A stretch of 64,000 nucleotides of DNA, taken from positions 398,459 through 462,458 of the forward strand of contig DIBV01000001.1 of NCBI GenBank assembly GCA_002415085.1. Reading direction: 5' to 3'. The translations under genes and the position numbers were made by a program. Origin of the DNA: Arsukibacterium sp. UBA5043 (GTDB lineage Bacteria > Pseudomonadota > Gammaproteobacteria > Enterobacterales > Alteromonadaceae). Position 1 is the first letter of the stretch, and each line of letters starts with the position of its first letter. The notes below the pieces were generated by a model, which was not told the origin of the DNA, ran no database searches, and worked only from the letters and a program-made list of their open reading frames with translations. Shown here piece after piece: positions 55,126 to 64,000 of this stretch.

Positions 55126-55630
55126 TATTGCCATCGCTTTGCAATATTACAGCCATGTTATTGTTTTAATTTAATTATTTTAAATAGATAGGGTTAGCCG
55201 CTGCAGATAAAAGAAGCCCAGAACCAATCCGAATTGTTCTGGGCCTAGGGGAATGGCTCATAGGGAATGAGCCGTGCGCTATCGAAAAATCGTTGCTAAC
55301 AAGTTGCCAATCAAAGTAAGGAAGAGTGTAGTAAAGCTAATTCACTTTTTCCTGTTATCTGTTGCCGCTCTTTTCTGGTTATCTGTAAAGTTACCCACCG
55401 GTTCTACCCAGCTTATGCCCAGCTTATCCCCTGATTTGTGCCGCGGCATCGCATTTTTGCAGTCTTTGTCCTTAAATGGGGGCAAATTTTTTTTATAAAA
55501 AATTGATATAAAAACTAATTTTAAACAAAAAAAAAGTCTAAAAAATAATCTGTAAAAACGTAATTTTATCCAGCCAATTTAATTATCAACCTGATATACC
55601 TGTTCTATGTTACTGCTACTTTAGGCGCAT
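55126..55630. other. Long AT-rich intergenic region after tatD
   Basis: 505 bp without a supported gene. It contains a strong hairpin (55216-55244) and an A/T-rich tract (about 55490-55580) with runs of T and A. A 74-codon open frame at 55274-55498 has no convincing ribosome site or homology and was not called. Confidence 0.6.
55216..55244. terminator. Terminator-like hairpin after tatD
   Basis: Nine-base stem GCCCAGAAC/GTTCTGGGC with an 11-nt loop. The T-run is better on the minus strand, so it may be a factor-assisted end for tatD. Confidence 0.5.
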
Positions 55631-57342: not shown

Positions 57343-58470
57343 ATGGCAAATGCAAAACAATTATCAGGCGCAGGCTTACGCGGCCAGGTTGCGGGTAAAA
57401 CCGCGTTATCAACCGTGGGTAAAACCGGTTCAGGCCTGACGTATCGTGGTTATGATGTTAAAGATTTAGCGGCAAGCTGCGAATTCGATGAAGTGGCGTT
57501 TTTAATTTTAAAAGGCGAGTTACCAAATAAGGCTGAGCTTGCACAATATAAAACGAAACTAAAAAGCATGCGCGCGCTGCCACAGGCATTAAAAGACGTG
57601 CTGGAACGGATCCCGGCATCTGCTCATCCGATGGATGTGATGCGCACAGGTTGCTCTATGCTGGGTAATCTGGAAACTGAACAGCGTTTTGCCGAGCAGC
57701 AGGATATTACCGACCGAATGCTGGCGGTGTTCCCGGGTATGGTTAACTACTGGTACAACTTCAGCCATCACAACAAGAAAGTTGATGTAGAAACGGATGC
57801 CAATTCAACTGCTGAGCAGTTTTTATGGACCTTGCATGATGTTAAGCCGACAGCGTTGCATACCCAGGTAATGGAAGCGTCGCTGATTTTATATGCTGAG
57901 CATGAGTTTAACGCTTCTACCTTTACGGCCCGGGTATGTGCTTCTACCCTTAGCGATATGCATTCTTGTATTACCGGCGCTATTGGTTCGTTACGCGGCC
58001 CGCTGCATGGCGGCGCCAACGAAGCAGCGATGGAACTAATTGAAAACATGAAAAACCCGGATGACGCTGAGCAAAAGCTGCTGGGTATGCTGGAACGCAA
58101 AGAAAAAATTATGGGCTTTGGTCATGCAGTGTATGCTGAGTCTGATCCACGCAATGCGGTTATCAAACAATGGTCAGAAAAGTTGGCTAAGGCTAATGGT
58201 GATACGCGGTTATATGACGTATCAGAGCGTTGTGAAGCGGTAATGTGGCGCGAGAAGAAGCTGTTTTGTAATGCTGACTTTTTCCATGCCTCTGCCTACA
58301 ACTACATGGATATCCCCACTAAGTTGTTTACGCCAATTTTTGTTTGCAGCCGTTTAACCGGCTGGGCAGCACATGTCATGGAGCAGCGCGCAGATAACCG
58401 GATTATCCGGCCAAGTGCTGACTATGTAGGCGTAGAGCCGCGCAGCGTTAAACCAATTAATGAACGGTAA
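57343..58470 (+). CDS. prpC: 2-Methylcitrate synthase
   Basis: Condenses propionyl-CoA with oxaloacetate. 375 residues of the citrate-synthase fold, with LRGPLHGGANEAAMELIENM, GFGHAVYAESDPRN and KLFCNADFFHASAYNYMDIP. Shorter than GltA and lacking its N-terminal domain, as is usual for PrpC. Ribosome site TTGGAGTAGAAA. Next gene acnD starts 6 bp later. Confidence 0.97.
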   Translation: MANAKQLSGAGLRGQVAGKTALSTVGKTGSGLTYRGYDVKDLAASCEFDEVAFLILKGELPNKAELAQYKTKLKSMRALPQALKDVLERIPASAHPMDVMRTGCSMLGNLETEQRFAEQQDITDRMLAVFPGMVNYWYNFSHHNKKVDVETDANSTAEQFLWTLHDVKPTALHTQVMEASLILYAEHEFNASTFTARVCASTLSDMHSCITGAIGSLRGPLHGGANEAAMELIENMKNPDDAEQKLLGMLERKEKIMGFGHAVYAESDPRNAVIKQWSEKLAKANGDTRLYDVSERCEAVMWREKKLFCNADFFHASAYNYMDIPTKLFTPIFVCSRLTGWAAHVMEQRADNRIIRPSADYVGVEPRSVKPINER

Positions 58471-58475
58471 TAGCA

Positions 58476-61076
58476 ATGAATAACGACTATCGTAAAAAAC
58501 TGCCCGGCACAGAGCTGGAGTATTTTGATACTCAGGCCGCGGTCGATGCTATAGAACCCGGCGCATACGCCAAATTGCCTTATACCTCACGCGTTTTTGC
58601 TGAAAATTTAGTACGGCGTTGCGATAAAGCCACCCTGACTGATTCGTTAAAACAATTTATCTACCGCAAAAACGACTTAGATTTTCCGTGGTATCCGGCC
58701 CGGGTAGTCTGCCATGATATTCTGGGCCAGACCGCGTTAGTGGATTTAGCCGGCCTGCGCGATGCAATTGCGGAACAGGGAGGCGATCCGGCTAAAGTTA
58801 ACCCGGTGGTACCAACGCAGTTAATTGTCGATCACTCCTTAGCGGTAGAGCATGCCGGTTTTGAGAAAGACGCGTTTGAGAAAAACCGCAGTATTGAAGA
58901 TCGGCGCAACGATGATCGGTTTCACTTTATTAACTGGACCAAAAAAGCTTTTAAAAATGTCGATGTTATCCCACCGGGTAACGGCATTATGCACCAGATT
59001 AATCTTGAGCGGATGTCGCCGGTAGTGCATTCGCTGGATGGTGTGGCATTTCCTGATACGCTCGTGGGTACTGACAGCCATACCCCGCATGTTGATGCAC
59101 TGGGCGTTATTGCCATCGGCGTTGGCGGCCTGGAAGCAGAAAGCGTGATGCTTGGTCGTGCCAGCTGGATGCGCCTGCCTGATATTATTGGTGTTGAACT
59201 AACCGGCAAAGCGCAGCCTGGCATCATGGCCACCGATATTGTGCTGGCATTAACTGAGTTTTTACGCAAGCAAAAAGTGGTATCGAGCTATCTGGAGTTT
59301 TATGGCGAAGGTGCCCGCAGCTTAAGTCTGGGTGACAGAGCCACCATCTCCAATATGACGCCGGAATACGGCGCCACCGCCGCCATGTTCTATATTGATC
59401 AGCAAACGCTGGACTATTTAACCCTGACAGGCCGCGAAGCCAAACAAGTTCAGCTGGTTGAAACCTATGCTAAAACAGCAGGTTTATGGGCAGATAGCCT
59501 GGAAACGGCAGAATACGAGCGGGTGCTGAAGTTTGATTTATCCAGCGTTGGCCGCACCATGGCCGGGCCATCGAACCCGCATGCGCGCCTGGCAACCAGT
59601 GAGTTAACCAGCCGCGGTATCGCCGGTAAATACGAGCTGGAAGAGGGCAAAATGCCCGATGGCGCGGTTATTATTGCCGCCATTACCAGTTGTACCAATA
59701 CTTCAAATCCACGCAATGTTATTGCCGCGGGCCTGTTAGCCCGCAATGCTAATGCCAAGGGCTTAACCCGCAAGCCGTGGGTTAAAACCTCACTGGCACC
59801 TGGCTCAAAAGCAGTGCAGTTATATCTGGAAGAAGGCGCATTGCTGCCTGAGCTTGAGCAATTAGGCTTTGGTATTGTTGGTTTTGCCTGTACAACCTGC
59901 AACGGCATGAGCGGTGCGCTGGATCCGGTGATTCAAAAAGAAGTGATTGAACGTGATTTATACGCCACCGCGGTGTTATCCGGTAACCGGAATTTTGACG
60001 GCCGTATTCATCCTTATGCCAAGCAGGCCTTTTTGGCCTCGCCAGCTTTAGTTGTTGCTTACGCGATTGCCGGGACTATCCGCTTTGATATTGAAAAAGA
60101 TATTCTCGGATACGACGACAAAGGTAACGCTATTACCTTAAAAGATATCTGGCCGGACGATGTCGAAATTGACGCTATGGTAGCTAAAAGCGTTAAACCC
60201 GAGCAATTCAGGCGGGTATATGAGCCGATGTTTAACGTTGCGGTTGATTATGGCGAACAAATTAGTCCGCTATATAACTGGCGGCCCCAAAGCACCTATA
60301 TTCGCCGGCCGCCGTACTGGGAAACTGAAGGTGAGGGCGCCATTGCCGGTGAACGCAGCTTAAGCGGTATGCGGCCTTTGGCGGTGTTGGGGGATAATAT
60401 TACTACCGACCATTTATCGCCGTCTAACGCCATTATGCTCGACAGTGCTGCGGGTGAATACCTGCATAAAATGGGTGTTCCTGAGGAAGATTTTAACTCT
60501 TACGCCACCCACCGTGGTGATCACTTAACCGCGCAGCGGGCCACCTTTGCTAACCCGAAGCTGATTAATGAAATGGCCGTGGTTGATGGCAAAGTGCAGC
60601 AAGGTTCGTTAACCCGGCTGGAGCCAGAGGGTAAAGTTGTACGCATGTGGGAAGCGATTGAAACCTATATGCAGCGCAAGCAGCCATTGATCATCATCGC
60701 TGGTGCTGATTATGGCCAGGGTTCATCACGCGACTGGGCAGCGAAAGGTGTGCGCTTAGCCGGGGTTGAAGCCATTGCTGCAGAAGGTTTTGAGCGTATT
60801 CATCGAACCAATTTAATTGGCATGGGCGTATTGCCGCTGGAGTTTAAACCGGGCACTACCCGTGAAACTCTTAAGCTTGATGGCACTGAAACCTATGACG
60901 TTACAGGCGAGCGCAAGCCGCGGGCCGAGCTTAGCCTGGTTATTCACCGGGCCAACGGCGAAACGCTGCAGGTGCCGGTAACTTGCCGCCTGGATACCGG
61001 CGAAGAGTTGTCGATTTACGAAGCCGGTGGTGTACTGCAGCGCTTTGCCCAGGACTTTTTGCAAGGGTCTGTTTAA
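58476..61076 (+). CDS. acnD: Fe/S-dependent 2-methylisocitrate dehydratase AcnD
   Basis: Dehydrates 2-methylcitrate to 2-methylaconitate; it replaces PrpD in this pathway and needs PrpF. 866 residues of the aconitase-A fold. [4Fe-4S] ligands are in AAITSCTNTSNPRN and GFACTTCNGMSG; DSHTPHVDALGV and GADYGQGSSRDWAAKG (swivel domain) are present. There is no prpD in the window. It normally abuts prpF; here 489 bp separate them (see repeats). Confidence 0.97.
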   Translation: MNNDYRKKLPGTELEYFDTQAAVDAIEPGAYAKLPYTSRVFAENLVRRCDKATLTDSLKQFIYRKNDLDFPWYPARVVCHDILGQTALVDLAGLRDAIAEQGGDPAKVNPVVPTQLIVDHSLAVEHAGFEKDAFEKNRSIEDRRNDDRFHFINWTKKAFKNVDVIPPGNGIMHQINLERMSPVVHSLDGVAFPDTLVGTDSHTPHVDALGVIAIGVGGLEAESVMLGRASWMRLPDIIGVELTGKAQPGIMATDIVLALTEFLRKQKVVSSYLEFYGEGARSLSLGDRATISNMTPEYGATAAMFYIDQQTLDYLTLTGREAKQVQLVETYAKTAGLWADSLETAEYERVLKFDLSSVGRTMAGPSNPHARLATSELTSRGIAGKYELEEGKMPDGAVIIAAITSCTNTSNPRNVIAAGLLARNANAKGLTRKPWVKTSLAPGSKAVQLYLEEGALLPELEQLGFGIVGFACTTCNGMSGALDPVIQKEVIERDLYATAVLSGNRNFDGRIHPYAKQAFLASPALVVAYAIAGTIRFDIEKDILGYDDKGNAITLKDIWPDDVEIDAMVAKSVKPEQFRRVYEPMFNVAVDYGEQISPLYNWRPQSTYIRRPPYWETEGEGAIAGERSLSGMRPLAVLGDNITTDHLSPSNAIMLDSAAGEYLHKMGVPEEDFNSYATHRGDHLTAQRATFANPKLINEMAVVDGKVQQGSLTRLEPEGKVVRMWEAIETYMQRKQPLIIIAGADYGQGSSRDWAAKGVRLAGVEAIAAEGFERIHRTNLIGMGVLPLEFKPGTTRETLKLDGTETYDVTGERKPRAELSLVIHRANGETLQVPVTCRLDTGEELSIYEAGGVLQRFAQDFLQGSV

Positions 61077-61370: not shown

Positions 61371-61418
61371 ATGTCTGCACCACAAATTAAAATCCCCGCA
61401 ACTTATATGCGTGGCGGT
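61371..61418 (+). pseudogene. Second, diverged copy of the prpF 5' end
   Basis: Encodes MSAPQIKIPATYMRGG, matching MFAPQIKIPATYMRGG of prpF at 61566. The 48-bp segments differ at 8 sites, seven of them silent third-position changes. After residue 16 the frame continues into unrelated hairpin DNA. Probably a relic of an earlier or foreign prpF start. Confidence 0.85.
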
Positions 61419-61565: not shown

Positions 61566-62753
61566 ATGTTTGCACCACAGATAAAAATTCCAGCCACTTA
61601 TATGCGGGGCGGCACCTCTAAAGGGGTGTTTTTTAAACTCGATGATTTACCAGAAGCGGCGCAGAAGCCGGGCTCAGCCCGCGACAAACTATTGTTGCGG
61701 GTTATCGGCAGTCCCGATCCTTATGGCAAACATACCGATGGTATGGGCGGCGCCACATCCAGCACCAGCAAGGCGGTTATTTTAAGCAAAAGCAGCAAGG
61801 CCGACCATGATGTGCATTATATTTTCGGCCAGATAGCGATAGACAAGCCCTTTATCGACTGGAGTGGTAACTGCGGTAATCTAAGTGCTGCGGTGGGCTC
61901 ATTTGCCATTAGTAACGGTTTGGTTGCCAACGATCGCATTCCACAAAATGGTATCTGTACCGTGCGGATCTGGCAGGGTAATATTGGCAAAACCATTATC
62001 GCCCATGTACCTATCACTAATGGTGAAGTGCAGGAAACCGGCGACTTTGTGTTAGATGGTGTGACATTTCCGGCCGCTGAAGTACAAATTGAATTTGTAA
62101 ATCCAGCCGCTGACGCAGGAGAGGGGGGTGGCGCCATGTTCCCCACCGGCAACGTGGTCGACGAGCTGGATGTGCCAGGTATTGGCAGTATTAAAGCAAC
62201 CCTGATTAACGCCGGGATCCCGACTATCTTTATTAACGCGGCAGATATTGGTTATCACGGTACCGAATTACAAGATGCGATAAATGGCGATGCGGCTGCC
62301 TTACAACGTTTTGAAACCATTCGGGCCTATGGGGCGCTGAAAATGGGTTTAATTAATGAAGTTGAGCAAGCGAGCGTGCGCCAGCACACGCCAAAAGTAG
62401 CCTTTGTCGCCCCACCACAGGAGTATAAATCATCCAGTGGCAAAACCGTGCCGGCTACAGATATCGACTTACTGGTAAGAGCGTTATCAATGGGTAAACT
62501 GCATCACGCCATGATGGGCACTGCTGCAGTAGCCATTGGCACCGCTGCTGCTATTCCTGGCACGTTAGTTAACCTGGCCGCTGGCGGTGAAGCACGCGAA
62601 GCCGTGCGGTTTGGCCATCCGTCAGGGACGTTAAAAGTGGGCGCCGCTGCAGAAAAAGTCGATGGCGAATGGACCGTGACCAAGGCGATTATGAGCCGCA
62701 GTGCACGGGTGCTGATGGAAGGCTGGGTACGCGTACCGGGTGATTACTTCTAG
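61566..62753 (+). CDS. prpF: 2-Methylaconitate cis-trans isomerase PrpF
   Basis: Isomerises the AcnD product so that the methylcitrate cycle can continue; required with AcnD. 395 residues, with the family start KIPATYMRGGTSKGVFFKL, catalytic-region GGATSSTSKAVILS, DWSGNCGNLSAAVGSFAI and FGHPSGTLKVGA. Strong ribosome site TAGGAGGTTAA. It is intact despite the repeat-laden upstream region. Confidence 0.96.
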   Translation: MFAPQIKIPATYMRGGTSKGVFFKLDDLPEAAQKPGSARDKLLLRVIGSPDPYGKHTDGMGGATSSTSKAVILSKSSKADHDVHYIFGQIAIDKPFIDWSGNCGNLSAAVGSFAISNGLVANDRIPQNGICTVRIWQGNIGKTIIAHVPITNGEVQETGDFVLDGVTFPAAEVQIEFVNPAADAGEGGGAMFPTGNVVDELDVPGIGSIKATLINAGIPTIFINAADIGYHGTELQDAINGDAAALQRFETIRAYGALKMGLINEVEQASVRQHTPKVAFVAPPQEYKSSSGKTVPATDIDLLVRALSMGKLHHAMMGTAAVAIGTAAAIPGTLVNLAAGGEAREAVRFGHPSGTLKVGAAAEKVDGEWTVTKAIMSRSARVLMEGWVRVPGDYF

Positions 62754-62774
62754 TCAGAAACCACCTTTTGAACA

Positions 62775-62796
62775 GGGCGCTGCGGCGCCCTTTTTT
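62775..62796 (+). terminator. Terminator of the prp operon
   Basis: GGGCGC-TGCG-GCGCCC stem followed by six T residues; also overlaps the intI stop. Confidence 0.88.
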
Positions 62797-63760
62797 ATAG
62801 CAGTTGTGATAGGGGGCTTTTAACGCCACTGGCACCATGTTTCAGGACATGGGTATATATTTGGGTGGTGCGTACATCTGTATGACCGAGTTGCTCTTGC
62901 ACGGTGCGGATATCCATACCGGCTTGCAGCAAATGCGTAGCAAAGGAATGGCGAAGCGTATGGCAGGTTACATTTTTCTTAATTTTAGCCTGTCGAGCCG
63001 CCAATTTAACGGAACGCCGGACAGTAGTTTCATCAATATGATGTCGCCGTAGCAGTTTAGATTCCGGATCAACACTTAACTGGCTCGATGGAAACAAGTA
63101 CTGCCAGCCAAGGTCTTTAGGAGCTGCCGGATATTTTCGGGCAAGAGCAAAAGGCAGCCATACACCGGCATATTGCGGGTTCTGGAAGTCAGCCTGAAAA
63201 TACTGCTCAACGTGATGGATTTGGATATGTAAAACAGGAACCAACTCTGCTGCCAGCGTAACCCGACGGTTTTTATTACCTTTGCCCTGCCACACCATTA
63301 CTGACAAATAGTCAAAATCAATATCTTGCACCCGAAGTCGTACTGCTTCCATCAGGCGTAAACCACTGCCGTACAATAGTTGGGCTATCAATTTGTATTT
63401 TGGATCTATCACTAACAGAATTTGTTGTATTTCGGCTTTGGTTAATACCACTGGCAACTTTTGGGCTATGCGGGCTTTATTAAAATTCAGCTGCAAAGAC
63501 AGCGGTCGCTGAACAATATGTTTATACAGAAAACTCAACGCATTCAGCGCCGTTGCTTGCGTTTTTACTGCAACACTGCGTTGGTTTGATAGAAAAGACA
63601 AAAACTGTTCAACTTCCAGATCGCCCAGTACATTAGGATGCTGTTTGTTGTTGTGCAATATATAAAACCTGATCCAATACAGGTAGGTATCAATAGTCCG
63701 CTTGGCATAGCGGCGGGTTCTCATAAAGTCGGCGATATATTCCAGAAATGGGGATGCCAT
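62795..63760 (-). CDS. intI: Integron integrase
   Basis: Tyrosine recombinase that inserts and excises gene cassettes at attI/attC. 321 residues. The catalytic set is Arg135 (LLYGSGLRLMEAVRLRVQDI), Lys160 (GKGNKNRRV), His267/Arg270 (CHTLRHSFATHLL), His293 (LGHTDVRTTQ) and Tyr302 (IYTHVL). The integron-specific extra domain is present (residues about 199-251, with RKYPAAPKDLGWQYLFPSS and LRRHHIDETTVRRSV), separating it from XerC/D and phage integrases. The ATG at 63760 has AAAGGTGAC upstream; an in-frame start at 63820 would overlap the promoter. Length resembles the chromosomal integrases of Vibrio (about 320) more than IntI1 (337). Confidence 0.93.
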   Translation of the reverse strand: MASPFLEYIADFMRTRRYAKRTIDTYLYWIRFYILHNNKQHPNVLGDLEVEQFLSFLSNQRSVAVKTQATALNALSFLYKHIVQRPLSLQLNFNKARIAQKLPVVLTKAEIQQILLVIDPKYKLIAQLLYGSGLRLMEAVRLRVQDIDFDYLSVMVWQGKGNKNRRVTLAAELVPVLHIQIHHVEQYFQADFQNPQYAGVWLPFALARKYPAAPKDLGWQYLFPSSQLSVDPESKLLRRHHIDETTVRRSVKLAARQAKIKKNVTCHTLRHSFATHLLQAGMDIRTVQEQLGHTDVRTTQIYTHVLKHGASGVKSPLSQLL

Positions 63761-63773
63761 GGCGTCACCTTTG

Positions 63774-63793
63774 TAGTGTTTATTTATACAGTA
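63774..63793. promoter_or_regulatory. LexA box in the intI promoter
   Basis: Minus-strand sequence TACTGTATAAATAAACACTA matches the gammaproteobacterial consensus TACTGTATATATATACAGTA at 17 of 20 positions. It includes a -10-like TATAAA and starts 14 bp upstream of the intI ATG. Confidence 0.75.
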
Positions 63794-63819
63794 GTATGGC
63801 CTGAGTAAAATATCCACCA

Positions 63820-63845
63820 ACTTGCGGGCACAATGCCTGCTTTTA
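63820..63845 (+). repeat. Direct repeat copy 1 near attI
   Basis: 26-bp sequence with core GCGGGCACAATGCCTGC, a small hairpin (GGCA/TGCC). It matches 63949-63974 at 21 of 26 positions. Confidence 0.6.
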
Positions 63846-63948
63846 GTTAATTTTATTAACAGTGGTAAACAGAAAGTTGTTGATAACCGGTGTTTTTCGG
63901 GTTAGTTTTGGGAAATTAAAATTTTCGAGAATGCAACTTGCTGGCGCG

Positions 63949-63974
63949 ACTCGCGGGCATAGTGCCTTCTATTA
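63949..63974 (+). repeat. Direct repeat copy 2 near attI
   Basis: 26-bp sequence with core GCGGGCATAGTGCC, also a GGCA/TGCC hairpin. Spaced 129 bp from copy 1. Confidence 0.6.
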
Positions 63975-64000
63975 AATTGTTCTGTCTCGCCGGAAGCTCG

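Follow-up and report, generated by a model that had tools for sequence, protein, structure and literature searches.

The platform end of a chromosomal integron beside the prp operon of Arsukibacterium, and probable platform replacement at two docking sites in the genus

The end of the 64,000-nucleotide window (the whole stretch of DNA analysed here, from Arsukibacterium sp. UBA5043) holds a recombinase gene next to the prp operon, and the question that this locus raises is whether it is the edge of a chromosomal integron and, if so, how such an integron persists at one place in the chromosome. We regard it as very probable that the window ends in the platform of a chromosomal integron and that prp and relA-mazG are docking sites at which platforms have been replaced. 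The platform-end reading follows from an intact intI gene beside prpF, a LexA-type box, an attI-like region and a cassette junction. Genomes, contigs and loci carry our G, C and L labels where they must be told apart; G000 is the window's own genome, and G007, G030 and G023 are presumably A. indicum, A. tuosuense and Arsukibacterium sp. UBA3155.

The intI gene lies on the minus strand at 62795..63760 and encodes a product of 321 residues, which scored 466 bits against the integron-integrase profile TIGR02249 (cut-off 265) and aligned with V. cholerae IntI4 (PDB 2a3v) over residues 1 to 320 at an E value of 2.3e-130. All six residues at the positions that we take to be catalytic in IntI proteins (R135, K160, H267, R270, H293 and Y302 in IntI4 numbering) are found in it, together with the IntI-specific insert ARKYPAAPKDLGWQYLFPS at 207, so that the intact integrase described in the original prediction is borne out and, by these features of its sequence, the protein is an IntI and not a Xer protein. 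That it is instead a Xer or phage-type recombinase, with which it has the Phage_integrase domain in common, can be set aside as wholly improbable, given 148 and 140 bits with the XerD and XerC profiles (both short of their cut-offs, 330 and 335) against 466 bits with TIGR02249, the full-length IntI4 match, the insert, and the attC arrays that adjoin the intI genes of relatives.

As first called, the open reading frame had 341 residues and began with a TTG at 63820, which is probably not the true start. We prefer the ATG at 63760, since residue 1 of IntI4 aligns there and the starts of the intact aligned relatives agree, lying at the matching position or no more than about three codons from it. 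The broken intI copy in G030 has ATT where the window copy has this ATG.

A candidate LexA-type box, TACTGTATAAATAAACACTA, lies on the minus strand at 63774..63793, 14-33 bp upstream of the ATG, and matches 17 of 20 positions of the LexA consensus. The best 20-mer within 100 bp upstream of intI matched 14-18 of 20 positions in all 34 of the 40 intI copies that were examined (G023_C23, G012_C30, G012_C2, G004_C47, G008_C19 and G021_C8 were left out), against 9-13 of 20 in in-gene control stretches of equal size. At most 1% of single-base shuffles (200 per copy) reached the observed score, and the pattern CTGTN8ACA was found in 32 of the 34 upstream regions. The intI promoter thus appears to carry a LexA box, the mark of an SOS-regulated integron. 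Control of intI by the SOS response is reported to be widespread in marine integrons (PMC3108266). As in the family at large, LexA would repress intI and DNA damage would relieve the repression.

Upstream of intI there is non-coding DNA of the kind anticipated for an attI site. It holds a direct repeat on the plus strand, also seen by eye in A. indicum, with one copy at 63820..63845 and a second, 81% identical, at 63949..63974, ending 4 bp before the crossover triplet; the repeat resembles what we assume to be the integrase-binding repeats of known attI sites. The orthologous region of the A. indicum locus L019 is identical at 145 of 179 positions, and the two sequences agree through the GTT at 63979-63981 and diverge immediately beyond it. 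The conserved region, the repeat and the crossover GTT shared with A. indicum point to an attI upstream of intI, as expected of an integron, and the last 22 bases of the window, 63979..64000 on the plus strand and opening with this GTT, would be the start of the first gene cassette.

The contig (G000:C13) ends at window base 64000 (C13:462458), 22 bases into that cassette, and any array of the window's own would lie beyond the assembled sequence. At up to three mismatches, the 22 bases have one other place in the own genome, an exact match at C11:1-22 on the other strand. Since this too is a contig end, the assembly could have broken at a repeated cassette. An insertion sequence at the contig end was also considered, several other contig ends sharing about 22 bases, but matches inside cassette arrays favour a repeated cassette here. 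Of 147 genomes drawn from the family, six of which belong to the window's genus, three contain the 22-base start at up to two mismatches, namely the own genome, G013 and G007, and the copies in these two congeners differ from the window by one mismatch. It stands there behind attC-like sequences (recognised by eye, at two places in G007 and one in G013) that are not among the listed covariance-model hits of these genomes; other covariance-model hits flank it on both sides. In both congeners it opens a 315-bp cassette (end set by eye), which is identical at 315 of 315 positions between the two G007 copies and at 308 of 315 between G007 and G013. For this reason the window most likely ends within the same or a sibling cassette.

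The cassette start bears directly on whether the integrase is solitary, its intI and attI being followed by few cassettes if any (In0). In favour of this, the covariance model found no attC within the 64-kb window, and the own genome is nearly without model hits: two at E<=1 with 150 of 972 candidates scored, and, in 42 own-genome stretches totalling 825,677 bases, seven at E<=2, of which two fell below 0.01. When two own-genome attC candidates were folded as single strands, 4 of 200 shuffles were as good as the one and 176 of 200 as good as the other. The sister genome G030 gave only two genome-wide hits at E<=0.05, yet six in two fetched intI stretches, a smaller search. Against it, two congeners have a 315-bp cassette whose start matches the 22 bases past attI with one mismatch, and these bases recur at an own-genome contig end where a repeated cassette can account for the break; a solitary integrase is accordingly quite unlikely. 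On pieces of the own genome, the hits of an in-house attC scanner at lowered thresholds were spread over both strands and included two 'strict' ones within the window, so the scanner was not relied on there.

Among relatives, integrases of this kind stand beside arrays, and the check proposed in the original prediction, a search for attC sites past the integrase, comes out positive there. A strict in-house attC scan of intI loci in named genomes, covering the best 80 of the 175 found, placed all 112 attC-like sites on the array strand and 111 of them upstream of intI, across 40 loci; the single downstream hit (L022) is probably due to chance. The rule behind these counts is partly tuned on the data, because its consensus, at first too strict (8 loci), was relaxed on 12 loci and then given a stricter filter on 80. 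Scan hits that failed it (131 on the plus and 42 on the minus strand) were not counted. Since 37 of the 112 strict sites served to train the covariance model (R1), the model is not independent of them, and four of the 40 loci searched with it (L188, L196, L204 and L205) are on contigs judged to have supplied training sites. These 40 genus intI loci (38 from congeners, L011 and the window) yielded 195 attC sites at E<=0.05. All were oriented as expected and none fell outside the array side, though this side makes up 155,049 of the 525,102 bases searched. At least one site, with cassettes adjacent to intI, was present at 30 of the 40 loci; at the other ten, the array side is just 2 to 3547 bases long, and the window, whose contig ends 22 bases into the cassette, is one of them. 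In whole-genome searches at E<=0.05, all eight congeners tested gave attC hits, 2 to 44 each, counts that are lower bounds because 150 candidates were scored per genome. G016 and G017, both among these eight, have attC hits despite having no intI match at E<=1e-60. In two sister arrays we listed the open reading frames of 24 intervals between attC sites, which mostly hold one small frame without obvious function; these arrays do not strengthen the hope of novel systems beside the window integrase.

The other side of intI is host sequence. Reading on the plus strand toward the integrase, the window has a presumed prpC (57343..58470) and a presumed acnD-like aconitase gene (58476..61076), both named after the operon and used as locus markers, and then prpF (61566..62753; PF04303, E 8.8e-173), which is convergent with intI. 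A consensus scan placed a terminator-like hairpin 3' of prpF at 62774..62791 on the plus strand, its T-run touching the intI stop codon, and congeners have a similar hairpin (by eye). The first 47 bases of prpF (61566-61612) are duplicated at 61371-61417, 195 bp upstream, with 85% identity, and a perfect 20-nt inverted repeat (61248-61267/61305-61324) lies nearby; this looks like an old duplication or insertion. Farther away, at 55205-55351, the small RNAs SdsR/RyeB and SraC/RyeA have matches on opposite strands.

Comparison across the genus indicates that this junction is old. At E<=1e-60, intI was found in 29 of 31 genus genomes, the own genome included. It adjoins the prp operon in 21 of the 31, remnants stand beside prpF in two more (G016 and G017), and of the 30 genomes that have prpF, 16 show by eye an intI 3' end that abuts its terminator. 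This is the stable chromosomal locus within a lineage that characterises a sedentary integron, and the suggestion that the place beside the core prp operon might be such a locus held up when related genomes were compared, the prp site being a long-lived one. Seven further copies adjoin relA-mazG, and five genomes (G000, G006, G007, G023 and G030) have copies at both sites. Twelve copies lie elsewhere so far as the fetched stretches show, 'elsewhere' meaning that no prp or relA-mazG marker was in the stretch, some of which end at a contig edge. Taken together, these counts suggest that prp and relA-mazG are two conserved integron sites of the genus.

The second site is occupied in the own genome as well. 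An integron on contig C5 (L011 8641-10678) has an intI 70% identical to that of the window, and some 1 kb from this complete gene the mazG site also has about 29 codons of a detached intI 3' end; genes for a Rap1a-like immunity protein and a Tae4-like T6SS amidase lie between the two. At L011 10992-12910, between the attI region of this integron and the next cassette-like gene, there is a gene for an IS91-type transposase (Y2 transposase and zinc-binding domain) and, next to it, one for a tyrosine recombinase. The end of C5, used as a query, found one further similar place in the own genome, at C4:120777. The start of C11 (L109 1-60) has an attI-like sequence followed by the 22-base cassette start, and C11 has no intI match; none of 1000 single-base shuffles was as good as its match to the window attI, against 306 of 1000 for the C5 attI, and it is possibly the trace of a third integron.

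The integrases at the two sites do not form two lineages. Window-type IntI occurs at prp in the own genome, in G030 (broken) and in G023 (cut by the contig end), and at mazG in G007 (interrupted); C5-type IntI occurs at mazG in the own genome, G030 and G018, and at prp in G007, G010 and G027, among others. We placed 38 of the 40 copies (all except G004_C47 and G021_C8) with five outgroup rows on a 43-row tree, dropping the last 14 residues from rows longer than 300. The prp label needs 11 changes on this tree, at least five of them forced by the starred branches, and the mazG label needs four, at least three of them forced. Label shuffles were as low as observed in 25 of 500 cases for prp and 5 of 500 for mazG; since the labels still cluster in this way, replacement has not been free mixing. 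A single clade of mazG-site IntI was rejected (p-AU 3.9e-65), as was a single prp-site clade set against mazG-site IntI (p-AU 4.2e-38), with groups chosen after inspection of the tree.

The ends of the genes behave differently from their bodies. Among the tails read, for 36 of the 40 copies, SPLSM ends six of the seven mazG-site copies, which belong to three clades, and none of the 29 others; the exception, G023_C21, is a mazG-site copy without the site-typical Met. The prp-site tail, SQLL, occurs at other sites too, so at the protein level only the mazG tail is site-specific. At the DNA level, the A. indicum mazG-site copy is 90/86/84% identical to the window copy over the body but matches it at 12 of the last 21 bp, whereas the A. 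indicum prp-site copy is 66/61/69% identical over the body and matches at 20 of 21. Different IntI clades occur at both sites, while the final codons of intI and the DNA beyond them go with the site. These patterns suggest an exchange of platforms at fixed docking sites, the breakpoint lying in the 3' end of intI. Over its first 163 residues the prp-site copy in G030 is 97% identical to the window IntI, while prpF is 91% identical, which fits a transfer between species, movement within a genome being the alternative route. In G007 a segment of some 270 bp (L174 1576-1845), its ends inverted as judged by eye, interrupts the window-type intI close to codon 290, and the tail past the interruption is closer to the other IntI type (97% vs 83%).

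Could the two-site pattern have arisen without exchange, from several ancient integrons per genome that were lost differently at each site? Multiple copies per genome do occur, five of the 31 genomes having copies at both sites and others elsewhere. Such a history leaves unexplained why tails should go with the site and bodies with the clade (the Met in 6 of 7 copies against 0 of 29) and why identity changes abruptly in the last 21 bp, and we consider it unlikely, if less so than a solitary integrase. Exchange of platforms is the reading that we prefer. As elsewhere in the family, IntI would recombine the single-stranded attC of circular cassettes with double-stranded attI at G^TT, and new cassettes would be added at the attI end. 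From the comparison of genomes, prp and relA-mazG would act as conserved docking sites, and platforms (attI plus the intI body) would have been replaced or exchanged there through recombination that broke the DNA in the final codons of intI on one side and beyond attI, somewhere in the array, on the other. A more specific proposal, to which we give somewhat less than an even chance, is that attI and the intI body are swapped as a unit at prp and relA-mazG, within or between genomes, through crossovers in the conserved intI 3' end at one side and in shared cassettes at the other; a 'sedentary' integron would then be a resident site with an exchangeable platform.

Set against known systems, the window integron itself is ordinary, and a conserved neighbour, multiple integrases and replacement at one locus are already known. 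In its full-length integrase match, LexA-type box, attI-like region and, in relatives, same-orientation attC arrays, it resembles the sedentary chromosomal integrons of marine Gammaproteobacteria of the V. cholerae IntI4 type; it differs in that any array of its own would lie off the contig and that the eight congeners tested have at least 2 to 44 genome-wide hits. Open-licence literature gave no paper joining an integron with Arsukibacterium or a chromosomal integron with Rheinheimera; papers that combine integron, Rheinheimera and integrase were, among the matches listed and in their accessible parts, mostly on resistance elements and surveys. Nor did that literature, among the matches listed, contain a description of two-site exchange with a mapped 3' breakpoint. 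More than one integrase is reported for about a fifth of integron-bearing lineages (PMC2426708). In Shewanella, IntI of different groups lie downstream of the same gene, trpA, and the available part of that paper (PMC9229058) describes no intI breakpoint or two-site exchange such as we propose here. The closest parallel that we cite, again from the accessible text, is the Xanthomonas integron at ilvD, a genus-wide conserved locus where one species has a replaced intI variant (ilvD 97.1% vs intI 68.2% identity), read as recombination (PMC12444791). Unlike that single locus, Arsukibacterium has two sites in one genus, with IntI clades at both, and this two-site comparison is a natural test of platform replacement with a persisting site and a mapped breakpoint, which could matter more than the window integron itself.
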